From assembly GCA_928724745.1 (NCBI GenBank), contig CAKMXJ010000003.1:868001-932000 (forward strand): a stretch of DNA of 64,000 bases, in the 5' to 3' direction. Position numbers and translations under genes: made by a program. Origin of the DNA: Anthracocystis setariae (lineage: Eukaryota; Basidiomycota; Ustilaginomycetes; Ustilaginales; Ustilaginaceae). A model generated the notes under the pieces. The model searched no databases and was not told where the DNA came from. It worked only from the letters and a program-made list of their open reading frames with translations. Of the stretch, positions 45,157 through 58,556 are shown in pieces. How positions within the stretch are numbered: the stretch's first letter is position 1; each line of letters opens with the position of its first letter.

Positions 45157-45321
45157 GATGCATCACGTGCTGTAGAGGGCGTGCGCGTCTGGGCTGAGCC
45201 TATCGGCCGTATCCTCCATCATGTCTCATTTGGCTCATCCGCCATCATCCTGCCTCTGTTCCTCCATCTCGTCTCGAGCCAACAGCGCTTATCGCTCGTT
45301 GGCTGTTTATTCTTATCGTCG
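45157..45321 (+). repeat. split direct repeat A1 (left end of Ngaro-like element)
   Basis: 165 bp apparently identical to 58221-58385. It begins GATGCATCACGTG. Confidence 0.9.
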
Positions 45322-46490
45322 GTCAGCTCCTCTGACCGCTACGATGTCGGACGGCCTCAAGCTCTGCCGCACATGCAAGCAGCTGAAGCCGCTCCACGAG
45401 TTCTTCCACCGCACTCGCACCACCCAGGTCGTGCGCTCGTGCCTAGCCTGCCGACCGGTACGCCCGTCAGCATCGTCATCCGTATCCCCGGCGTCGCCAT
45501 CAGCACCAGCACTCACGCCATCCGCGCCACTGCCGCCGACGCCAGCTCAACCGTCAGTTTCGACACCGCACCCCACTGCCCCGCACCCGCCCACAGCTGT
45601 GGCTTCGCCGCCCGCCGCCGCCGAACCGTCGTCGCCCCTTCCGGCCTCAGCACAGTTTGCTACGACCGCCTTCGTCACCCAGGCGGTTGAAAACAGCATC
45701 AGCGAGCTGCGCCAGCTTCTGCAGGACGACATCCACCACGCCGTTCAAGGTCTGCAGGCCGCCATCCAGGCAGCGTCGTCGCAGCAATCGGTCGCCGCAC
45801 CACCACCGCCCTCTGCACCCTCGGCTAGCGCGCCAGCCACCACCGCTCAGCCCCATCCGGCCCTTCCCGCCCCGCTCGGTGAGTACCAGACCGGTTGCCG
45901 CTACACGTGGATTCCCCCCGAGCTCGTCGACAAGGTTCACAGCGACTCCATCTCCGTCTACGAGCTCCCAAAGCTCGCCAACCCAGCCTGGCCCACCACC
46001 ACTGTCGACGAGGAGCCTGCCGAGGTTTATATCGACGGCTTCAAGCTCAGCAAACGGGCGAGCTCGTCGACCTCCAATAAAGGTTTCCTCCGCGCCGTGC
46101 CGTCCTTCGAGGTCTTCACGAAGATCTGGTTTGTCTACGCTTCGCTGCGCGCCGCCAGCTCTCCCGACCGCGACCTCCCTATCGGACTGGGCCGTTTTTT
46201 CCTGCACATCGCAGAGCAGCAAGCCGTCTACCCCTGGGAGCGGGTCGTCGACTACATCGTCACCCTCTGCACGGCTCGCCTGGGTCGAGCGTCAGCAGCA
46301 GAGTGGGCCCATTACGACAGCGAGCTCAACAACTCGCACTTCTTGGGTGTCGCGCCACGACAGCAGCCTCAGTCAGCCACAACCACGACCAAGAAGCGAC
46401 CGCGCGACGATGACCCGCGCCGCCTCGAGATCTGCACCTCGTGGAACAACGGCAGGTGCGTCGGCACCGACGAGCGACCTTGCGTACGCC

Positions 46491-46850
46491 TGTTACGATT
46501 GGGATATCGGGAGAGTTAGTGTCCGGTCTTAGTATTAACATGGGCGGGGGTAGTTCCCCCCGATATAGCCCCGGATCGGTGATCGGGGCAGACTGCGGCA
46601 TCTCCCGGGGGGTATCCGGGAGACCACATAATCCCCACGTCCTGATTCCACCACGCTCACGTTAAGACGTCGATTGTATTTTAGCTTACTCACTCTAGTA
46701 GGTGGAAATATCAGACCTTCTCCCGATCTCCCGCTCACCCGCTCCGCTAGCTTGGCAACGATCCCGGGAGCAACACCCGGTACCACGCCCCTGGCCTCGA
46801 CACAGACGCACCGCCACGTTCCGAGGTTCTAAGACCCCAGGAGCATAACA
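46491..46850 (+). repeat. 5' LTR of the chromovirus
   Basis: 360 bp, TGTTA...TAACA. The segment 46669-46678 (GTCGATTGTA) is complementary to the primer site just after the LTR, so transcription probably starts at or near 46669. Confidence 0.93.
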
Positions 46851-46851
46851 T

Positions 46852-46861
46852 TACAATCGAC
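46852..46861 (+). promoter_or_regulatory. putative self-priming primer-binding site (Tf1-type)
   Basis: TACAATCGAC, one base after the LTR, is the exact reverse complement of GTCGATTGTA inside the LTR (46669-46678). No TGG as expected for a tRNA 3'-end primer is present. In the Tf1/sushi group the 5' end of the transcript folds back and is cleaved to prime minus-strand synthesis; the same mechanism is inferred here. Confidence 0.7.
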
Positions 46862-46897
46862 CTCCCCGTTGCCATCAACGCGGAGACCCCAGCTACT

Positions 46898-49800
46898 ATG
46901 CAAACCCGTAGCCAGCCTCGTCCCGGCTCCCCGGACTCTGTTACGAGTTCGGGCAGCCCTACCCCCGAAAGTCCCGATTCAGGAGGCGACCCCGTCCAGG
47001 GGCTAGTCGCCGCCGTGCAGAGCCTAACCGCCCTGGTCGGAGGATTGGCCGACCAGATCCGGCTGCTCAACGGTGGTCGAGCCCCCGACGCCGCCGTCCC
47101 GATCCCGGCAGAACCTAGCCTCCCGCCCATGGGGCATCCGGGAGACCTTTCTCCGGAACGCGAGACCTCGGAAGAACGGTACGCCCGCGCTACTCGCCTT
47201 ATGGGCGAGCGCGAGGCCAATCCCCAGCCGGTACCCCCGGGAGCTCCCGTCGTAGCTACCAACTGGGACCTTACGGAGGACTACTCCTCCCGGGTCAAGA
47301 CCCCGGAAGTTAGCGTTGCCGCCCCTTCCTGGGACGGTAAGCGCGACGAGCTGGAGGCTTTCATCGAACAATGCACCCTCCATTTCGATCTTAACCCGGC
47401 ACGCTTCCCCTCCGACCCCCGCCGTGTCTTATGGGCCCTAGCCCATATTTCGGGTGTACCCCGGGAGCGACTCCGCAACCTGCGCCAGGCCCGCCCGGAA
47501 ATCAACCTGTTCCACAAATGGGATACGTTCTGTGCCGATCTTCGCCGCACCTATGGGGATCCTAACCCGGGACACACCGCCCGGGTCAAGCTCCAGCGGT
47601 TGCGTCAATCGGGAAGCGTTAGCGCTCACGCTGCCGAGTTCCTGGCCCTAGCCACTAAGGCTAACGCTACCGACAATCAGCAATTGTTGACTACCTTCCA
47701 GCTTAGCCTCCGGGAGAGCCTCCGGCAGAAGCTCCTCCACGTGGAGACCCACGACCTGCACGAGTACATTGACACCGCTATCCGAACCGAGCAGCGAATG
47801 TACGAAATCGGCTTGGTGACCCCGGGTCACTCGGACCCCCCGGGTCGCCCGGAACGCCGTCCCGAACTTCGGGGCGGTCGCCCACCCAATCCGATGGTAC
47901 CCCGTCGCGAGACCCCCAACAGGCGGGGTGACCCGCCCCGCCCCGGGCTGGCCAGCCGGGAGCTTCCCGACGAGGTCCGCAAGTACCGTCGGGAAAACAA
48001 CCTCTGCTACGGGTGCGGGGGCCCTCACGCAGTCCGGGACTGCCCAAAGGCCGCCCAGACTCGGCCCCTCCGGGCCAACGTGGCCATCCTGGACCCCGCC
48101 AACGGCGAGCTTTTGGTCCAACCCCTGGTCCCGGACGTCCCGGAGACCCGGTGGTCCGGTGAGGACGAAGCCACACCCACCAACGGCGAGGATGACCTAC
48201 CCGATGACCGCTCCGTCCTTTCCTATGACCCGGAGTGGGACCCCGAGTTCACCGACCACCCTCAGACTCTCCCGGTGAGGTCCAACATCGCCCAACTTCG
48301 CCAGGACCCGGGGCTCGTGGATCTCAGGAGCCATGTAGCGGCCCTCATCCCCCCCGCCGAGCCGGTGATCAGCGGGGACACCATCCGGGTACACCGACAC
48401 CCCAGCATCCCGGTGTATGAGTGCTGGGTCACGCTGGCCGGGTGCCGTGCCCGGGCCCTAATCGACGGGGGCGCCACCGCTTCTTTTGTGGACAGGGCCA
48501 TGCTGGATCGGGAGGTGGGCGTCCCGGAGGCCCTCCGGGCCCCGGTGCGTACAGCAACCTTCGATTCCCGCTCAGAGGCTATTACCCACGCTCTCCGGGC
48601 ATCGGTCAGCCTTGCGGGCGTCCCGGTTACCCCAAATCATCAATTCTATGTCGCACCCCGCATCTCCGACTATGATATCATCCTCGGAATGGATTGGATT
48701 GAGAAGACCGAACCGGTACTCAATTATCAAACCCAAACCATGCACTTCCCGCTCCCGGGAGGAGGGGGTTATGCCACCACCCCGGTTCAACCTACCGGCC
48801 CCCCGCTGCTTACCAATGGACAGGATCCCGTCCCGGGGGAGAACTGTTTCGCTATCCACCCCAGCTCCTTGGAGCCATCCCGGGCCCCAGGCCTCCCGGA
48901 AGAGTACCGGGACTTCTCGGACGTGTTCAATGAGGTCAACGCCGATGTGCTCCCGCCTCGCCGGCCTCACGACCACCAGATTAACCTCCTCCCCGGAGCC
49001 CAGATCCCACATGGCGCACTATACTCCCTCTCCGGGAGAGAAATGGAGGAGCTTAAGGCCTATCTTGATAAGATGCTTGAGATAGGGTTCATCCGGCCGT
49101 CCAAGAGCCCGGCAGCCGCCCCTATCATCTTCGTCCCGAAGAAAGATGGCAAACTCCGCCTTTGCGTCGACTACCGGGCCCTCAACAGCATCACCGTCAA
49201 AGACAAGTATCCGATTCCCCTGATCTCCGAGCACCTGGACTGCCTCTCCCGGGCTAAGATTTACACGAAATTGGATCTTAAGGGGGCCTACAATCTTGTC
49301 CGCATCGCGGAGGGCGACGAATGGAAAACAGCCTTCCGGACCAGGTACGGGAGCTACGAATACTTAGTTATGCCCTTTGGACTATGTAACGCCCCGTCCA
49401 CTTTCCAGCGTCTTATGAACCACGTTCTCCACGACCTCTTGGATGTCACCGTAATAGTGTATTTGGATGATATCCTCATATTTTCCGCCGACCCCGCAGA
49501 ACACACCTCTCACGTCCGGGAGGTGTTGGGACGTCTCCGGGACCACAAGCTGTACTGTGCCCCGGGAAAATGTGACTTCGGGACCTCGTCTGTCGAGTTC
49601 CTCGGGTACCGGGTCAGTCCCGGGGGGATCAGCATGGACCCCGGTAAGGTGGACGCGGTGTCGTCCTGGCCAGAACCGGTCACCATCCGGGACATCCAGG
49701 TCTTTCTAGGGTTTGCCAACTTCTATCGCCGCTTCATCCGGCACTACTCCCGGGTGGCGTCCCCGCTCACCGATCGGCTTAAGAACAAGGCCTCCGGTAA

Positions 49801-51784
49801 GATCAACCTGGAGCCCCGGGAACGGGAGGCTTTCACCCGACTCAAAGAAGCCTTCACTACCGCCCCAATCCTACAACACTTCGACCCTTCCCGGCTCACA
49901 GTGATCGAAACAGATGCTAGCGATTACGTCGTGGCTGCCGTACTCTCACAGTGGTACGCCGCCCCGGGGACCGACCCTGAGGCCGTACCCCGGCCCTCGA
50001 CCCACCGGCTCCATCCGGTAGCCTATTGGTCGCGAAAGATGCAACCCGCAGAGCGTAATTACGAAATCCACGATAAAGAACTCCTAGCAATCGTAGATGC
50101 GTTGCAGGAATGGAGACATTACCTCCACGGGCTCCAGGAGCCGTTTGAGGTGCTCACCGACCACCAGGCCCTCCAATATTTCCAAACGAAACGGCAACTT
50201 AACAGGCGGCAGGCCCGGTGGAGCATGGCTCTCGGGGAGTTCACGTTTACCATTACGTACCGACCCGGGACCCAGGCAACCCGCCCAGACGCTCTGTCCC
50301 GGCGCTCCGATGGTCATCCCAACACCACCACCACCAATTATCAGCATGACCCCTCTAATGTCGCGGTCCTCCTACCCCCTGACCTGTTCCAGGATTCCGG
50401 GCTGGCGGAACAACGAACACCGGCTGCGCACCGGGTATCGGACGTAGCCCCGGGCCCCGACCCGCTCCCGACCAGTCCCGCGTCCCCCGCCGAAGTGAAA
50501 CGAATCCTAGAGCGCTATCACGACCACCCGACGGCGGGACACCCGGGAGTGGCCGCTACCCTGGAACTGGTCCGTCGTCATCATTCCTGGCCCAATCTCA
50601 AGCACGATGTCACAGAATACGTTCGGACCTGTGGAGCCTGTAAGCGCGCTAAAGCGCCCCGGCATAAGCCTTACGGACTGCTGCTCCCGCTCGACGCCCC
50701 GACCCGGCCGTTCGGGACCATCACGATGGACCATATTGAGGGTCTCCCGGTTTCCCGGGTCGGTGGTCTCACGTTCGACTCCATCCTCGTCGTCGTCGAT
50801 CGTCTCACCAAGTACTCCCTTTTCCTCCCGGCCCGGAAGTCCGATACGGCCAAAGATCTCGCCCACATGCTGTTCTCCCGCGTTTTTGCCTATTTTGGAC
50901 TCCCGGACGCCATCGTGTCGGACCGGGGGCGCACTTTTGTAGCGTCCCTGTGGAAGGATATCTTAACAGCCCTCGGGACCACCCCGGCCCTCTCCACAGC
51001 CTATCACCCCCAGACAGATGGCCAAACCGAGCGTGTTAACCAAAATCTAGAGGTTTTCCTCCGATTCTATGTCAACTACCAGCAGGACGACTGGGCGTCC
51101 TGGTTACCGTACGCCCAACTTACGCTAAACAATAGAATGTCAGCTACTACCGGGCTACCGGCCACCCTACCCCTGTTTGGCTTCACCCCGAAAACCCTCC
51201 CCGGGTCACCAGCCCTTTCCCCGGATGGCATCCCGCCCTCCGATTCGGCTTTCCGGGGACTCCTCCAACACTGCCGGACCAACATTAACCACGCTGCCAC
51301 CCTGATGTCTAGATACGCAAACCGCTCCAGGATGGACCGGTCTTTTTCCGGGGGTGACATGGTGCTACTCCGCACCCGACATCTGCATCAAGATCGACCA
51401 TCCCGGAAGCTAGGGAACCCGTTAGCGGGACCGTTTCGTGTCCTCCAGGCGGTAGGCTCCCGGGCTTACAAGTTGGACCTCCCGCCCGCCTGGAAAATCC
51501 ACCCGGTGTTTCACGTCAGCCTCCTGGAACCGCACTCCCCGGACACCCGGCCCTCCGAGCACGCCCCGACGTCCCGGCGCCTGGAGGACGACCGACAGGA
51601 CTTCGAAGTGGAAGATATTGTGGCTTCCCGGGAGACACGTCGGGGGCGGCAGTACCGGGTGAAGTGGGCAGGCTACACCCAACCTACGTGGGAGCCAGCG
51701 GCTCACCTAGAGAATAGCCAGGAGTTGCTCCAGGAATTCCATTGGCGGCAGTCCGGGAGCCAAGTTAGCTCCCGGGACTGCTGA
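46898..51784 (+). CDS. Gag-Pol polyprotein of the chromovirus, with C-terminal chromodomain
   Basis: A single 1,628-residue ORF without frameshift between gag and pol. In order: gag region (about 1-350); zinc knuckle C-Y-G-C-G-G-P-H...C at about 370-382 (C-x2-C-x3-H-x4-C); protease-like segment with I-D-G-G-A-T near 522-527, where D-S/T-G-A is normal; reverse transcriptase with Y-L-D-D at about 855; RNase H with E-T-D-A-S near 1003; integrase with an HHCC zinc site (about 1207-1255; C-G-A-C) and the D, D, E residues near 1277, 1341 and 1378; and a chromodomain (about 1569-1622; Y-R-V-K-W-A-G-Y, W-E-P). Chromodomains of this group direct integration to marked chromatin. Apart from the protease the frame looks intact. 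Confidence 0.95.
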   Translation: MQTRSQPRPGSPDSVTSSGSPTPESPDSGGDPVQGLVAAVQSLTALVGGLADQIRLLNGGRAPDAAVPIPAEPSLPPMGHPGDLSPERETSEERYARATRLMGEREANPQPVPPGAPVVATNWDLTEDYSSRVKTPEVSVAAPSWDGKRDELEAFIEQCTLHFDLNPARFPSDPRRVLWALAHISGVPRERLRNLRQARPEINLFHKWDTFCADLRRTYGDPNPGHTARVKLQRLRQSGSVSAHAAEFLALATKANATDNQQLLTTFQLSLRESLRQKLLHVETHDLHEYIDTAIRTEQRMYEIGLVTPGHSDPPGRPERRPELRGGRPPNPMVPRRETPNRRGDPPRPGLASRELPDEVRKYRRENNLCYGCGGPHAVRDCPKAAQTRPLRANVAILDPANGELLVQPLVPDVPETRWSGEDEATPTNGEDDLPDDRSVLSYDPEWDPEFTDHPQTLPVRSNIAQLRQDPGLVDLRSHVAALIPPAEPVISGDTIRVHRHPSIPVYECWVTLAGCRARALIDGGATASFVDRAMLDREVGVPEALRAPVRTATFDSRSEAITHALRASVSLAGVPVTPNHQFYVAPRISDYDIILGMDWIEKTEPVLNYQTQTMHFPLPGGGGYATTPVQPTGPPLLTNGQDPVPGENCFAIHPSSLEPSRAPGLPEEYRDFSDVFNEVNADVLPPRRPHDHQINLLPGAQIPHGALYSLSGREMEELKAYLDKMLEIGFIRPSKSPAAAPIIFVPKKDGKLRLCVDYRALNSITVKDKYPIPLISEHLDCLSRAKIYTKLDLKGAYNLVRIAEGDEWKTAFRTRYGSYEYLVMPFGLCNAPSTFQRLMNHVLHDLLDVTVIVYLDDILIFSADPAEHTSHVREVLGRLRDHKLYCAPGKCDFGTSSVEFLGYRVSPGGISMDPGKVDAVSSWPEPVTIRDIQVFLGFANFYRRFIRHYSRVASPLTDRLKNKASGKINLEPREREAFTRLKEAFTTAPILQHFDPSRLTVIETDASDYVVAAVLSQWYAAPGTDPEAVPRPSTHRLHPVAYWSRKMQPAERNYEIHDKELLAIVDALQEWRHYLHGLQEPFEVLTDHQALQYFQTKRQLNRRQARWSMALGEFTFTITYRPGTQATRPDALSRRSDGHPNTTTTNYQHDPSNVAVLLPPDLFQDSGLAEQRTPAAHRVSDVAPGPDPLPTSPASPAEVKRILERYHDHPTAGHPGVAATLELVRRHHSWPNLKHDVTEYVRTCGACKRAKAPRHKPYGLLLPLDAPTRPFGTITMDHIEGLPVSRVGGLTFDSILVVVDRLTKYSLFLPARKSDTAKDLAHMLFSRVFAYFGLPDAIVSDRGRTFVASLWKDILTALGTTPALSTAYHPQTDGQTERVNQNLEVFLRFYVNYQQDDWASWLPYAQLTLNNRMSATTGLPATLPLFGFTPKTLPGSPALSPDGIPPSDSAFRGLLQHCRTNINHAATLMSRYANRSRMDRSFSGGDMVLLRTRHLHQDRPSRKLGNPLAGPFRVLQAVGSRAYKLDLPPAWKIHPVFHVSLLEPHSPDTRPSEHAPTSRRLEDDRQDFEVEDIVASRETRRGRQYRVKWAGYTQPTWEPAAHLENSQELLQEFHWRQSGSQVSSRDC

Positions 51785-52036
51785 CTCCCGGTCGCCCCCG
51801 CCCCTCGGAACCCAGCGCGAGGGCGGCCAGCGAGGTCACCCTGGGAAGCATCAGCAAGGGAACGGGGAACGAAGTGGTCCGATCCGGGAAGCGGGACTGC
51901 GGTCGGGAGTTATGCATCCCGCCAAACGCAGTTTGCCCCGGGTGTTCCCTTGACCCGGCCACCACGCCCAGGGGACAGAAGGCTCACCGACACACTCACA
52001 CACACGCCCACACTCTCACCCTCACTCTCACTCTCT

Positions 52037-52055
52037 CACACACACACACACACAC
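52037..52055. repeat. (CA)n microsatellite inside the chromovirus
   Basis: A run of CA dinucleotides after a TCTCAC-rich stretch, between the Gag-Pol stop and the end of the antisense gene. Confidence 0.7.
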
Positions 52056-52141
52056 GACACGCGGGAACTCGAGGTAAACACAATTTCATTCCCGGGGTCC
52101 TAATGACCCCGGACACACGACCAGACCGAACTCCCGGGCTC

Positions 52142-54065
52142 CTACCTCCGTTTCTTACGAGGAGGGGTGCGGGGACGGGACTCGTATACGTCCGAGTCCA
52201 CCATCACCACATCCTCGTCGGAGTCCTCCCCGGACTCCCGGCTGCGTTCCTCCGCCCCCGAGGACTCCTCGTCGCGGGAGTCGCCCGGGGAGTTGTCCCG
52301 GGAGCTCCCCCGACGGCGGGAACGGAGTGGGGCCCGCATGTCCCGCACCACCGCCTGGGCACGGCGGCGCTGGGCACGCCTCTCCGGTTCGGGAGAGGGA
52401 GGGCGGAGCCCACCCACCGGGAGACGCTTCCCGCCCGTTTGGAAGCTCCCCGGGAGGCGCTTACCCCCCGTCTGAGGGGGGCGCTTCCCCCCCGTCTGAG
52501 GCCGGGAGCCACTCGCCCGGGGAGCGCGTTCCCGCGATGGCGTCCCGGGACCCTGCCTTTTGGCACGGGCCATCTCCGGGGTTGCCGGGGTATAACCCGG
52601 AAGAGGAGAACCCCGGGGGCGAGACGGCCCAGCTTCGGCGTTGGGTTGCCGGGGAGCCGCCTCAAGGTGAGGGGCAGGGGCGGGAGCCGGGACAGGGACA
52701 GGGGCAGGCACAGGCACCACGGGGGGCGGGGGAGGGAGCGGGACGCCAAGCTCCCGGGTGATGCTCTCGAAAGCACCACTCACACCCTCCAGGTAACGGA
52801 GGATGCTCTCGTCCCGGGAGGACCACTCCAGGCGACGCTCAGCCCCAACAGCAGCGGTCCGGCGAAGGACCTGCACCAGCGCGGCGATAACTCCCGCCGC
52901 GTGGGATGCTGCCTCCCGGGCCCCGGCCATATGTTGGTCCCCCGGAGCATCGAAGGGACAAACCTGGCGCAGGGCCAAGGGAGCGTCGGGGATGAGGGTG
53001 GTTTGTTTCCACCCCCGTTGACCCCGAGGGGGCCGGGAGCCCGGGGCAGTGCCGCCCCCACCGGTAGACGGCCCAGCGGGAGACTCGGGAGCCCGGGGAC
53101 GACTTCCCGCTTTGGCTTGACGCCGAGCCTCGTACCGAGCACGCGCGGGGGCGTACTCGGCCGCCAGGTAGTCCGGGAGGTCGGCCGCGGAGAACGAGGT
53201 GAAGGGCATCCCGGGGTTCGGACGTTGACCCCGGGCCCGGAGGGTGAGATAAGCCTCCATGAGGAAGCCACCCTCCTGGCGTCCCGTAATGTCCGGGACG
53301 CGCCCCTGCCAGTCACAGGGATACCCCGCGACATGGCACCTCTCACACGCGGCAGGCTGACCGTCCCGGGGGTCCTCCGGACCCCCGACGTCCCGGTGAG
53401 CGAACCCCAGGGAGCATTGCGGGTGCGGCTTCTTCTTGCTATTTGCGCAAGACCAGCACTGCCCATACCCCTCCGAAGCAGGAGGGGCACCCCGCGCTCT
53501 CACCTCCCGGACCAGCTCCGCCAGCCTACCGGGATCCCCGATCGGTACGCCACGCCCGGGAGTCGGGGCGGCCACGTTCGAGGACCCGGGGGTAGCCCCA
53601 CTAGGGGGGACCACCACGCTGCCGGAGCCATTTGTCCGGGGGACCGGGAGCCCTTTGCCTATCTTCCCGGTGCGAGGCCGAAGCCTGCGCCGGGGACTCG
53701 TCCACACCCCTGACACCCGGGACCAAATCGGGGTCAGCTTCCCCGCGCGGGAGCACGGGGGACTCGTCCACGTACAGGGAGACTACGTCTCCCTCTTGGG
53801 CCACATAGTGACCCGACTCATCCACAACCTCCGGGGCACTCACACCCCGGGACTCGTCCACTACCTCCGGGGCACCAACGCCCCGGGACTCGTCCACGTC
53901 ATTGTTGTCGCCGGGGGCGGGGGCAGAGCCTCCCGACACCCCAGCGCCGGAGCCACCTCGCCGGGTGGAGGATCTTGTTGCTGTTGCGGTAAAAGCAAAA
54001 AGAAGAGAACGTCAGCACATGTTCTTAACCCGCCTCCCGGGTCCCGGACGGTACTTACCAGGCAT
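52142..54065 (-). CDS. antisense three-exon gene inside the chromovirus, Cys-rich product
   Basis: The proposed gene has exons 54065-54059, 53980-53776 and 53684-52142, totalling 1,755 nt (584 residues). Intron 1 (78 nt) runs GTAAGT to CAG with CTGAC; intron 2 (91 nt) runs GTACGT to CAG with CTGAC. The second intron is what joins two otherwise different frames; the long 3' frame has no usable ATG of its own. A TATATAAG lies 82 bp before the ATG on this strand. The product has short V-D-E-S-x-G-V repeats, a cysteine-rich segment (C-x2-C-x10-C, then C-x2-C-x6-C and D-W), and Pro-rich and Arg/Ser-rich tails ending K-K-R-R. Function unknown; zinc or nucleic-acid binding is possible. Confidence 0.65.
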
Positions 54066-54146
54066 CTTGAGGGAAATAATGTTCCGGGCGTCGAGGAACG
54101 AGGTTGTGGGGGAAGGGAAGGAACCAGGAACGGGAGCGAGGCGAGT

Positions 54147-54154
54147 CTTATATA
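54147..54154 (-). promoter_or_regulatory. TATA box of the antisense gene
   Basis: TATATAAG on the minus strand, 82 bp upstream of the proposed ATG at 54065, in GC-rich surroundings where such a motif is rare. Confidence 0.6.
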
Positions 54155-54340
54155 CAAAAGAGAAGTTAGCGCTCAGCCCGCTGCGCACGCTCCGCCGCGC
54201 ACGCCCCGCCAGGCACACAAAGCGTTCGTTCCTGGCCCCTTTGTTTTCAGCGCGGACCACGCGTGGTGGGTCCGGGAGCCTCCCGGGCGAAGCTTAAGAC
54301 CCGGGAGTACCTAGCAGGCCACGAGGACGTTGGCCTTCCC

Positions 54341-54353
54341 GGGGGGGGGGGGG
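54341..54353 (+). promoter_or_regulatory. polypurine tract (G13) of the chromovirus
   Basis: Thirteen G followed by TAA, directly before the 3' LTR at 54357. This is the expected place and composition for plus-strand priming. Confidence 0.75.
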
Positions 54354-54356
54354 TAA

Positions 54357-54715
54357 TGTTACGATTGGGATATCGGGAGAGTTAGTGTCCGGTCTTAGTA
54401 TTAACATGGGCGGGGGTAGTTCCCCCCGATATAGCCCCGGATCGGTGATCGGGGCAGACTGCGGCATCTCCCGGGGGGTATCCGGGAGACCACATAATCC
54501 CACGTCCTGATTCCACCACGCTCACGTTAAGACGTCGATTGTATTTTAGCTTACTCACTCTAGTAGGTGGAAATATCAGACCTTCTCCCGATCTCCCGCT
54601 CACCCGCTCCGCTAGCTTGGCAACGATCCCGGGAGCAACACCCGGTACCACGCCCCTGGCCTCGACACAGACGCACCGCCACGTTCCGAGGTTCTAAGAC
54701 CCCAGGAGCATAACA
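54357..54715 (+). repeat. 3' LTR of the chromovirus
   Basis: 359 bp. Matches the 5' LTR apart from one missing C (ATCCC here, ATCCCC in the left copy). Confidence 0.93.
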
Positions 54716-54906
54716 ACGCCGTCACGTCTGTCGCCACTGCGGCGGCAAGCACACCGGCAAGGACTGTTCCCGACAGCCGAACTCCGCCTCCACCGCCGCG
54801 ACCAGCACTTCCAGCTCCGGCAGCAAGGCTTCCAAGCCAAGCCTCAACTAGTGAGTCCACCTCACTCAGTCGACGGCCAGCCCAGTCGACTCTGTCCCGT
54901 GACGTC

Positions 54907-57900
54907 ATGGCCTGCTCGGCAGCGCATGACCAGTCACACAGCGACTCCCTCCGACTCCGGGTCGGCACGCTGTCCTCCAGCTCAGTGCCGCCTTCCCCAG
55001 CAGTCGACACTTCCCCTCCTCGGTCCCGCGATCGTGCAGCCTGGCTTTCAGCGTGCGCGTCATCGCCAAGTGGCCCCTCTCGACCCCGGCCAGACACAGC
55101 GACAGCCAGCCTGCCCCGCCTGACCACAGCGGCCCTCCCTCCCCCCGTCCAGCCCCGTGACCGCGCAGCCTGCTCGCCAGCGTGCGTGCCTTCACTCAGC
55201 GGCACCCTCGAGCCCCAGTCACCACCGCCCAGCGCGTTCTTGTCGACTACAGCGGCTTCTTCCCAGTCGACTGCGGCGGGTACGTCATCAGACCCCCTGC
55301 TTGTACCGTCAGCTGACCTTTCTCTCATCGCTCTGTCCGCCCTCCAATTCTCCCGTCCAACAGCTCGACCCAACACCACCATTGTCGAGCCCATCTTCTC
55401 GCCGTCCACCAAGCCCGCCCGACATGGTTCAATCCAGGCCTCTGTCGACGCCTGGGAGACCGCGCTTTCTACCTACCCCGACCAGTCCTTCGTCGACCAG
55501 CTGCTGGGTGCCATTCGACACGGCATCCTGATCGGCTATTCCGGCCCTCTTCGACAAAACAGCCGCTTCGGTTCCGTCAAGAACTTGCCCATGGACGCCG
55601 TTGGCACGGCGCACGTCAGGTCGGAGCTTGCAGCTCGGCTGGCAGAAGGCCGTATTGTCACCGTCGACCCCCACGCTCATCGCCTGGTCTGCTCACCCGT
55701 CGGCACCGTCCCCAAACCATGTTCGACAAAGCTGCGCACCATCCACCATCTGTCCCACCCCCGTCGACCAGCTGCTGGACAGCTGCCTGCGGTCAACGAC
55801 GGCATCGCCGCTCACTTCACCACGATCCGGTACGCCACGTTGGCACCCATCCTGTCCTTTGTTCGCGACAATCCTGGCTGCCGCCTGTGGAAGAGCGACC
55901 TCACCGACGCCTTCCGCCACGTCGTGACAGCGCTGGATGACGCTCGACTTCTCGGCCTTACCTTTGATGGCCTTTTCTACATGGAGACCGGCTTGACCTT
56001 TGGTGGCCGCAGCGCCCCATGGCTCTTCAACTTGTTCGCCGAAGCGCTGCATTGGGTCGTGCAGTCCACCACCACCTACCCTGTCGAGCACTATCTCGAC
56101 GACTTCTTTGGCGCCACGCCAGCTACCGCCGCAGCTCAGTCTCCGCTGCATGCGCTTGCGCTAGCCTGCCGCGCGTTCGGGCTCCAGCTCGCCCCATCCA
56201 AGACGTCTTGGGATCAGACGCGCTTGGAGATCTTGGGCATCGAGGTCGACACCGTCAGGCAGACGGTCGGCATCACCCTTGAACGGCGCCAACGGATTCT
56301 TGACAGCATTGACCACCTCCTGTCACGACGCTCGGCACGCTTGCTGGACTGGCAGCGCATCGCTGGCCTGCTACAGTTCGTGAGCCAAGTCGTGCCCCAC
56401 GGCAAGGCCTACCTCCGCCGTCTCTACGACGCCGCCAAAGCAGCCCACCGCCACCCTCTCGCTCTGCGCCGAGTATCTCGTCCAGCCGCGGCAGAGCTTC
56501 GCTGGTGGCGCGCCACGCTCTGCGCCTGGCCCGGCCACACGCTGCTTCAACCATCGCCGCTCGTCGTCGAACATGTCTGGACAGACGCCTCGAAGCGCGG
56601 CTACGGCGCTCATTGGGGACTCATGTCCTCTCCCTCAGCGGTATGGTGCAAGGAGGTGTCGAAGCGCCACCGTCGAAAAGACATTCGCTTCCACGAGGCC
56701 TTGGCGGTTCTCGACGCGCTGCGCGCCTTCTCGCCGCGCTGGAACGCCCCTCGTCTCATCGTCCTCCACGTCGACAACACCAACGTCGAGTTCGGCCTTC
56801 GCTCTGGCCGATCTCGAGATCCGCTGACGCAAACACTCCTGTGCGAGATCTTTGGCCTCTGCTTCCGCCGCCAACTGACTCTCCACCCCGTGCGCGTGGC
56901 TTCGGAGGACAATCACTTGGCTGACCTTCTCTCTCGCCGCCGTTTTGCCTCCATCTCCCAGCGCTTCCCAAAGGCGCACAGCCTCCTTTTTCCAGCCAGT
57001 CGCGGCACGGCCCTCCCCCCTCCTTCGTCGCCGCCACAGGTTGTTCAACGGTCGCCGCCTCTTTCATCTGGCGAGGCCTCGCCGAGTCCAGTCGCCGTCG
57101 CAGCTCTGGCGTCCCGGGTCGATACGCCGCCTTCGTCGCTCGCCGCTTCGGCCACAACGCCACCGCCTACCCAGCCTCCGACCTCTTCCTCACCGAGTGG
57201 GCTTGCGATATGGCGCGCACCAAGCCGTACCACAGCGTCAAGCACGAGCTTGACGCTCTCCGGTCCTGGCACGTCGACCTCGGCCTCAGCCTCGACGGCT
57301 TCACCCAAGGCCGCCTCGAACGCGCTGTGCGCGGCATCAAACGGACGCTTGGGCTTTGGCCAGCGGCGTCGAAGCTGCCGATCACCCTCCCTCTCCTGCG
57401 CGCCATCCTCGAAGTCCTCCCGCAGTCGTCCGCCCTCACCCCTTGGGATCGCCAAGTCGTCGCTGCCGCCTTCGCCGTCTCCTTCGCCTGCTTCCTTTGC
57501 TGTGGCGAAGTCACATGGGATGCCGGCAATCCCACCAGCTTGCTCGTTAGGTCGGTCACTTGGCACAACGACTACGCCATCCTCGTCCTTCCAGCCTCCA
57601 AGACCGACCCCTTCCGTCTCGGCGCTCCACTGGTCGTCCCTCGCGTCGGCGGCACCGAGTGCCCCTATGCCGCGCTGCGCCTCCTCTGTCCACCAAGTCG
57701 GCACACGACGGCCCCGCTCTTTGGCCTCCAGGATGGTTACAAGCCGCTCACACGGGCGACGTTCCTCTACCACCTGCGCCTCGCCATCTCGCGTCTCGGC
57801 CTCGACACTCGGCAGTACGCTGGCCATTCCTTCCGCCGCGGAGCGGCGACGTGGGCGGCAGCTCAAGGCGTCGACGCCGACACCATCAAGCTTCTCGGTC

Positions 57901-58239
57901 GCTGGAATTCCGACTGTTACCGACGGTATGTCGACCGCACTGCCACAGAGCGACGCACCATGGTCGCCTCTGCGCTCTATGGCGTCCGCCACGGCCCTCT
58001 CGTTCCGGCTGACGCCTCCTGGAGAGACCCCGTCCTCTAGCTTCGTTGGCGGTGCCTCCACGGCCCATCTGCCGCGACCGCTTCCTGCTGCGCAGGCGAC
58101 GCGACAGTCTTTGGCGGGCCGGGAGCCTCCGACGAGCCCAAGGACCTCACGGGTCTCTTGCCTGCAATCAAACGTACCTCATCTCTCGCGCGAGTGTGTC
58201 TCAGTCGATAGGTCAGACGGGATGCATCACGTGCTGTAG
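54907..58239 (+). CDS. reverse transcriptase / RNase H ORF of the Ngaro-like element
   Basis: The open frame spans 1,110 codons, but credible coding ends near 57060, where the tyrosine-recombinase frame takes over; the remaining part is a Ser/Pro shadow. The N-terminal 200 residues are low-complexity. RT begins near 230: S-D-L-T-D-A-F-R-H carries the first catalytic Asp (about 331), and Y-L-D-D-F-F-G the pair at about 396-402. RNase H follows with [10 protein letters not shown] (about 557) and [15 protein letters not shown]. This order and the L-D-D-F motif are those of DIRS-order elements. There is no integrase or protease. Confidence 0.88.
57210..58040 (+). CDS. tyrosine recombinase of the Ngaro-like element
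   Basis: 276 residues from the first ATG, but the frame is open upstream to at least 57045 and reads like the recombinase N-terminal domain ([11 protein letters not shown]). Translation probably enters from the RT frame by frameshift or splicing. Catalytic features: S-K-T-D (Lys 131), H-S-F-R-R-G (His 206, Arg 209), G-R-W-N-S-D, and the candidate nucleophile Tyr 240 in Y-R-R-Y-V. The first Arg motif, normally R three residues before the Glu of x-G-E, is Cys 97 here (F-L-C-C-G-E), so this copy may be inactive. The enzyme would integrate a circular DNA form without target duplication. Confidence 0.88.
58113..58223 (+). repeat. split direct repeat B1
   Basis: 111 bp matching 58446-58556; ends CGGGAT and shares GAT with A2. 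Confidence 0.9.
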
Positions 58240-58385
58240 AGGGCGTGCGCGTCTGGGCTGAGCCTATCGGCCGTATCCTCCATCATGTCTCATTTGGCTC
58301 ATCCGCCATCATCCTGCCTCTGTTCCTCCATCTCGTCTCGAGCCAACAGCGCTTATCGCTCGTTGGCTGTTTATTCTTATCGTCG
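58221..58385 (+). repeat. split direct repeat A2
   Basis: 165 bp matching A1 at 45157-45321. It carries the same short ORF start as A1 (58285), which is why an ORF appears there. Confidence 0.9.
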
Positions 58386-58445
58386 CCCACCCTGTATCTC
58401 CTCACCCTTGCCGCTCACCCTTGCGCTCGACCGGCCTCCTCTCAC

Positions 58446-58556
58446 GGCGGGCCGGGAGCCTCCGACGAGCCCAAGGACCTCACGGGTCTCTTGCCTGCAA
58501 TCAAACGTACCTCATCTCTCGCGCGAGTGTGTCTCAGTCGATAGGTCAGACGGGAT
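58446..58556 (+). repeat. split direct repeat B2 (right end of Ngaro-like element)
   Basis: 111 bp matching B1; ends in GAT at 58556. 60 bp of unique sequence (58386-58445) separates A2 from B2. Confidence 0.9.

Follow-up and report, generated by a model that had tools for sequence, protein, structure and literature searches.

A probable spliced antisense gene, conserved among copies of a chromovirus of Anthracocystis setariae

Results

The chromovirus and its surroundings

We analyzed a window of 64,000 nucleotides of the Anthracocystis setariae genome (contig CAKMXJ010000003.1, positions 868,001 to 932,000, forward strand); all coordinates without a contig name refer to it. The window holds an element bounded on the plus strand by a 5′ LTR of 360 bp (46491..46850) and a 3′ LTR of 359 bp (54357..54715), both of the form TGTTA...TAACA. 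The two LTRs are free of differences except for the one nucleotide in length, which argues for a recent insertion. Direct reading of the sequence gives a target-site duplication, ACGCC, on the left (46486..46490) and on the right (54716..54720), and a G-rich tract adjoining the 3′ LTR (54338..54356, plus strand), the probable polypurine tract. The gag-pol ORF (46898..51784, plus strand) encodes 1628 aa with gag, aspartic protease, RT, RNase H, integrase and chromodomain, and is matched by the RVT_1, RNase H, rve and Chromo (3.4e-11) profiles. By its RT-RNase H-integrase order, its C-terminal chromodomain and its flanking LTRs, the element is a chromovirus, that is, a chromodomain Ty3/Gypsy element.

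The chromovirus is nested inside another retroelement (45157-58556) with split direct repeats, in which 45157-45321 equals 58221-58385 and 58113-58223 equals 58446-58556. This outer element, presumably DIRS/PAT/Ngaro-like, has an RT ORF at 54907-58239 and a tyrosine-recombinase-like ORF at 57210-58040, the PF00589 match of which lies below the cut-off. Preceding the chromovirus insertion, a plus-strand ORF (45221-46519) starts with a cysteine-rich motif (CRTCKQLKPLHEFFHRTRTTQVVRSCLACR) and has a sub-threshold match to Stc1 (PF12898, E 0.03).

The antisense gene and its copies

Between the end of the gag-pol ORF (51784) and the start of the 3′ LTR (54357), the minus strand carries a candidate gene. 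A TATA-like box, TATATAAG, lies at 54147..54154, 82 bp upstream of an ATG at 54065. Predicted exon 1 (54059..54065) consists of this ATG and four further nucleotides; intron 1 (53981..54058; 78 nt, GTAAGT..CTGAC..CAG) and exon 2 (52142..53980) follow on the same strand. The frame that the first-pass annotation had noted between integrase and the 3′ LTR is thus present, but the two introns it assigned to that frame are reduced below to one. In the window copy exon 2 is split by a frameshift, and splicing at intron 1 alone gives 128 aa.

A search of the genome (21.5 Mb, 36 contigs) with the minus-strand region returned at least 42 matches. The 42 matches were fetched as 40 places, including the window copy and two places with two matches each, and were oriented and aligned. 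The gene start is held by 38 of the 40 fetched copies; the match begins at query position 394 in L043 and 441 in L045, the two copies without it. Exon 2 forms a single unbroken frame in 21 of the 40, and these copies encode full-length products of 565-629 aa with a common C-terminus, 16 of them of 613-617 aa. The other 19, among them the window copy, are shortened, frameshifted or ending differently. One copy, L029 (G000:C36:452742-456284), is broken by an insert of about 715 bp, and the flanking matches overlap there by 5 bp, resembling a target-site duplication. A short repeat in exon 2 (53700-53900, minus strand) encodes VDES-like motifs, and product length differs by 12 residues in this part.

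The signals at the gene start are well preserved. Across the 38 copies, the TATA-like box is TATATAA(G/A) in 32 and CATATAAG in six; the 5′ splice site is GTAAGT in 32, GTGAGT in five and GTAGGT in one; the branch site is CTGAC in 32 and CTAAC in six; and the intron, 75-82 nt long, ends in CAG in every copy. A nine-copy profile finds the splice signals, the TATA-like box and one upstream block largely fixed, and the 5′ UTR and much of the remaining intron variable. Intron-less copies were absent among the 38 in the alignment of fetched copies, as expected if transposition uses the sense RNA alone. The TATA box, the ATG 82 bp on and the 78-nt intron of the first-pass annotation are confirmed in this way, with the signals recurring in 38 of the 40 copies. 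Its question of whether other copies would be without the frame or the splice sites received a divided answer: intron 1 is widespread, but the full frame stands in just over half of the copies.

Similar genes in two further families

A search with the RT gave 157 candidates, of which 100 were scored and 80 used; 20 fragments (334 or fewer of 417 residues) were dropped by hand, and a few retained rows are equally short. In these 80, an antisense gene match is found 1.9-2.3 kb 3′ of the RT, on the other strand, in 24 of 30 loci of family 1, to which the window element belongs, in 17 of 18 of family 2 and in 21 of 27 of family 3. The family 2 exception (C5:705175) has a short, uncounted match equally far away (C5:702931-703146). 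Searched at the protein level, the genome yielded 17 further loci, which are 32-38% identical over the cysteine region.

Family 2 is a second chromovirus family, its RT 78-82% identical, and two of its loci, L049 and L050, were read at length. Its antisense gene occupies the same place and is homologous to that of family 1 (31% over 153 aa, E 1e-16). In these two loci the gene has two introns, of 90/89 and 82/82 nt, with GTAAGT or GTGAGT, CTGAC and CAG, and the product is 567/563 aa when spliced vs 25/19 aa when unspliced; dN/dS between the two is 0.15. As in family 1, intron 1 interrupts the first codons; the sequence that follows it is similar, and it may be ancestral to families 1 and 2.

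Family 3 (RT 58-60%) has a predicted spliced antisense gene, and in all 10 loci fetched, the best 10 of 30 places with the query copy included, its intron interrupts the Cys6 domain. The intron measures 68-72 nt, begins with GTAAGT and ends in CAG in five loci and TAG in five; the product has 516-522 aa when spliced vs 351-357 aa when unspliced. Here 43 of the 45 pairs give dN/dS of 0.16-0.28; the other two, with dS ≤0.02, were omitted. A profile comparison of family 3 with families 1 and 2 detected no homology (hhalign probability 1.7%) and does not establish a single origin for the three genes.

The family 2 and family 3 elements that were read lie between paired LTRs spaced by about 8.3 and 8.6 kb (C25:63791 and 72050 for L049, 99%; C2:1334481 and 1343059 for L051, 100%). 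In running antisense to gag-pol, lying between pol and the 3′ LTR and being conserved among copies, the genes agree with antisense additional ORFs (aORF-3R); a promoter of its own, a further mark of that class, may be present in family 1, where a TATA-like box precedes the ATG in 38 of 38 copies. Comparison of the loci shows the same antisense arrangement in three families of this genome. The first-pass annotation had argued that an antisense intron would outlast retrotransposition, and both the 38 intron-bearing copies of family 1 and the predicted spliced antisense genes of families 2 and 3 support this.

Family 4 (RT 36-42%) was searched by homology, and none of its five loci matched the antisense genes of families 1-3. 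The longest opposite-strand frames beside pol in its locus L062 (G000:C12:168500-174800) have 122-126 aa, a weak contrast that comes from the 3′ half of one locus and could miss intron-split frames; a 399-aa frame lies farther out and faces an ORF on the other strand. In the L062 pol (RT 38% identical), the chromodomain is followed by another RNase H match, and an ORF of a different kind lies past the end of pol.

Selection acts on the antisense frame

Nine representatives were hand-picked from the 21 full-length copies and compared in 36 pairs. The antisense frame gives dN/dS of 0.14-0.29 in these pairs, with dS up to 0.53, and the check for purifying selection among copies suggested by the first-pass annotation comes out in favor of the gene. 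Pooled pN/pS is 0.26 in the antisense frame and 1.4-2.3 in four other frames.

The remaining frame, the wobble-facing one of the sense strand, offers an alternative, in which the sense strand codes for an env-like third ORF and the antisense frame is its mirror. A plus-strand ORF at 51950..53713 is open in the window copy, the wobble-facing frame is stop-free in all 21 full-length copies, and its pN/pS is low (0.37). Third-position changes separate the two strands by a large contrast. Changes silent in the antisense frame alone were common (407/6759 transversions, 141/874 transitions), while those silent in the sense frame alone were rare (37/8907 and 0/408); changes silent in both frames amounted to 744/24265 transversions and 1969/20700 transitions, and those silent in neither to 94/4033 transversions. 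Because the copy pairs have a common history, the counts do not represent independent events. Among transversions, whichever antisense class is taken, changes that leave the sense frame silent are less frequent than those that alter it, which argues that base composition or context also contributes. In addition, exon 1 of family 3 has stops in all three sense frames in 10 of 10 loci. On the third-position counts and these stops we rejected the sense ORF as coding, and we give this alternative virtually no chance; the open mirror frame, the substitutions in which lack any sign of constraint in the family, is perhaps a by-product of GC-rich codon usage. As read from substitutions among copies, the comparison shows selection on the antisense frame and none on its sense mirror, and the antisense coding gene almost certainly exists.

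Two other gene models concern the introns. Intron 1 could stay unspliced, as a coding or untranslated stretch, with a start elsewhere or a non-ATG entry. In 17 of the 38 copies it is indeed 75 or 78 nt long, free of stops and in frame with exon 2, so that the frame does not force splicing in those copies, and it can be read in frame in 10 of the 21 full-length copies. The other 21 of the 38 copies, however, run into a stop after 5-62 codons, and in 11 of the 38 the intron length is not divisible by three; splicing is required to connect the ATG with the frame in 11 of the 21 full-length copies. The 5′ site, branch site and CAG are retained in all 38 copies, and in the family 2 and 3 loci examined the introns block any read-through from the ATG to the full product. 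An unspliced intron 1 is therefore quite improbable, and intron 1 is very probably spliced, as judged from these signals and frames. The first-pass annotation had added a second intron of 91 nt (53685..53775, minus strand; GTACGT, CTGAC, CAG), the length of which reproduces its product of 584 residues. In the window copy this two-intron model gives an open frame and has consensus-like signals, which recur identically in five close copies (L009-L012 and L029), the closest relatives of the window copy. These five and the window copy are nevertheless the only ones, six of the 37 that have the region, with all three signals together; the CAG is missing in 10 of the 37. Full-length copies read across 53775-53685 in one frame, with repeated VDES motifs, and give products of 565-629 aa. 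A little farther along, between about 53600 and 53690, the window copy shifts frame relative to these copies, and the proposed intron would bridge that shift. We rejected this intron and the 584-residue product, and regard the two-intron model as extremely improbable; the single intron 1 is retained for family 1.

The predicted protein

The family 1 protein has an acidic, repeat-bearing N-terminal part, a conserved center with six invariant cysteines, stretches of net positive charge among the basic residues 421-580, and an acidic C-terminus. The cysteines form the segment C-x2-C-x10-C-x22-C-x2-C-x6-C (53315..53458, minus strand). Both cysteine groups described in the first-pass annotation, C-x2-C-x10-C and C-x2-C-x6-C, are there, and the full pattern with its 22-residue spacer occurs in 21 of 21 full-length copies. 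In family 2 the spacing of the first group is x4 instead of x10, and the family 3 domain is C-x2-C-x6-C-x19-C-x2-C-x6-C. This layout of acidic and basic parts around six cysteines suits a nuclear regulator that binds nucleic acid.

Searches for relatives of known type were negative. Pfam returned no family up to E 10 for the family 1 protein, and weak matches to other families, below the cut-off, for families 2 and 3. Sequence searches of NCBIfam and the PDB gave no match. In the protein database, the whole family 1 protein found nothing at E 0.001 among the 7988 candidates that shared most words with it, and residues 148-425 found nothing at E 1 among 7997 such candidates. The alignment of families 1 and 2 had 56 pattern matches in viral contigs, with none confirmed. 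A single-sequence fold of 267 residues, made without an alignment, was poor (mean pLDDT 50.9). With neither a profile nor a structure matched, the case for nucleic-acid binding is made by the cysteine spacing and the charge. Membership in the TRP28 family was tried and dropped, as Pfam reports no PF04195 domain.

Discussion

Retrotransposons normally lose introns because they are copied through RNA. In these families, introns have been kept across deep divergence, the antisense proteins of families 1 and 2 being about 31-38% identical in their shared region, and such retention is expected of a gene on the opposite strand. Transcription and splicing of the gene we infer from its sequence, and a course of events can be proposed. 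An internal promoter adjoining the 3′ LTR would drive a minus-strand mRNA, from which a single short intron, following the second codon, would be spliced; the mature antisense mRNA would be translated into a protein of about 614 aa. The sense genomic RNA would carry the intron as its reverse complement, would leave it unspliced, and would pass it to each new DNA copy.

The comparison of copies supports the central proposal of the first-pass annotation, a spliced antisense accessory gene in a chromovirus with a conserved promoter-like region, and we consider it likely that the gene is spliced and encodes an accessory protein of the element. What the protein would do is less clear. We see about an even chance that it is a nuclear accessory regulator acting on the element: it may enter the nucleus, use its six cysteines and basic segments to bind zinc and nucleic acid, and act in trans on transcription or silencing, whether by activating, by opposing silencing or by limiting copy number. 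A basic, cysteine-bearing protein could also serve nuclear import or targeting, and import of the pre-integration complex is among the options listed in the review PMC7264820. We give a real but minority chance to the reading in which the antisense proteins assist integration or import, by way of the pre-integration complex or chromatin targeting, instead of regulating expression, since Gag, integrase and a chromodomain are already present and an antisense promoter of its own would uncouple expression of the protein from the genomic RNA, which would suit a regulator better. The antisense transcript, and not the protein, might also be what matters. A minus-strand transcript would match the 3′-terminal part of the genomic RNA in reverse complement, and by pairing with it could feed RNA silencing or limit expression, an effect proposed for LTR elements in the same review and one that could operate alongside a protein. 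A function in RNA alone, however, predicts neither selection on amino acids, which is evident in family 1 and likewise in families 2 and 3, nor splice signals that are kept while much other intron sequence varies; this makes it unlikely as the sole explanation. Among these, a protein that regulates the element is the reading we carry forward.

Antisense accessory genes of LTR elements are already known, in a fungus included; the conserved introns are the aspect that may be new. In plants they have been described in Grande and Retand, and a promoter of its own and a nuclear product have been reported for gene23 of Grande (PMC7264820 and PMC11963269). Maize Grande gene23, rice RIRE2 and Silene Retand ORF4/TRP28 likewise run antisense in the interval between pol and the 3′ LTR and are conserved among copies. 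Retand, however, belongs to a non-chromovirus plant lineage, whereas the window element is a fungal chromovirus, and the TRP28 domain of Retand is absent from the family 1 protein, as is any Pfam domain; the word "intron" does not occur in the main text of the Retand paper. A fungal case is that of brtn, an antisense gene in the Boty-like elements of Botrytis cinerea (PMC4227169, PMC8365987 and PMC7264820). Compared by description, brtn too is antisense in a fungal chromodomain Ty3/Gypsy element, but its host is an ascomycete, unlike that of the window element. Of 904 LTR-RTs in the smut Ustilago hordei, only 27 were expressed under two conditions (PMC9603552), a figure that would count against the model but may not carry over to the host studied here; the word "antisense" is absent from the main text of that article. 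The open-access literature, which leaves most subscription papers outside, yielded no report of conserved introns in antisense genes of LTR elements and none of such genes in smuts. The review PMC7264820 calls for the examination of antisense and spliced transcripts. Three families in one 21.5-Mb genome would allow a direct test of antisense accessory gene function in LTR elements.

A retroviral parallel deserves mention. HBZ is a bZIP protein that represses expression from the 5′ LTR; its transcript is spliced and starts within the 3′ LTR. It is the antisense product of HTLV-1, encoded at the 3′ end of the retroelement, nuclear, and driven by an antisense promoter in the 3′ LTR (PMC7264820; PMC11963269). 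The present gene differs from it in encoding a Cys6 protein, in having its TATA-like box and ATG in the internal region, outside the LTR, and in the lack of any Pfam domain, bZIP included, and an assignment to the HBZ-like gene class was rejected on these grounds. We propose, by analogy, a way of working like that of HBZ without kinship. A bolder reading, which we regard as rather doubtful, is that chromoviruses of smut relatives hold an old class of spliced antisense genes for element-specific Cys6 DNA-binding regulators, in which the intron acts as a check of strand and origin within a control loop that resembles that of HBZ and arose independently. If so, the protein would be made only from a nuclear antisense Pol II transcript of integrated DNA; the regulator would report integrated, transcribable copies, and could arise neither from genomic RNA nor in particles.

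The cysteines also invite comparison with the fungal-type Zn2Cys6 domain (PF00172), the spacing of which is C-x2-C-x6-C-x(5-16)-C-x2-C-x(6-8)-C. Both have basic residues and six cysteines arranged as a pair of C-x2-C-x(n)-C groups; they differ in the spacer, which is longer here, and in the first group, where family 1 has x10 and family 2 has x4. Membership in PF00172 was rejected, with no match up to E 10 and spacings of x10/x22/x6 in family 1 and x6/x19/x6 in family 3. Family 3, with its two C-x2-C-x6-C groups, shares its cysteine spacing exactly with a 638-aa "hypothetical protein" of Kalmanozyma brasiliensis (Ustilaginales), a smut yeast. This relative is 46% identical to the family 3 protein over 263 residues and was the sole match at E 1 among 1892 candidates; comparable genes may hide in databases under the same label.
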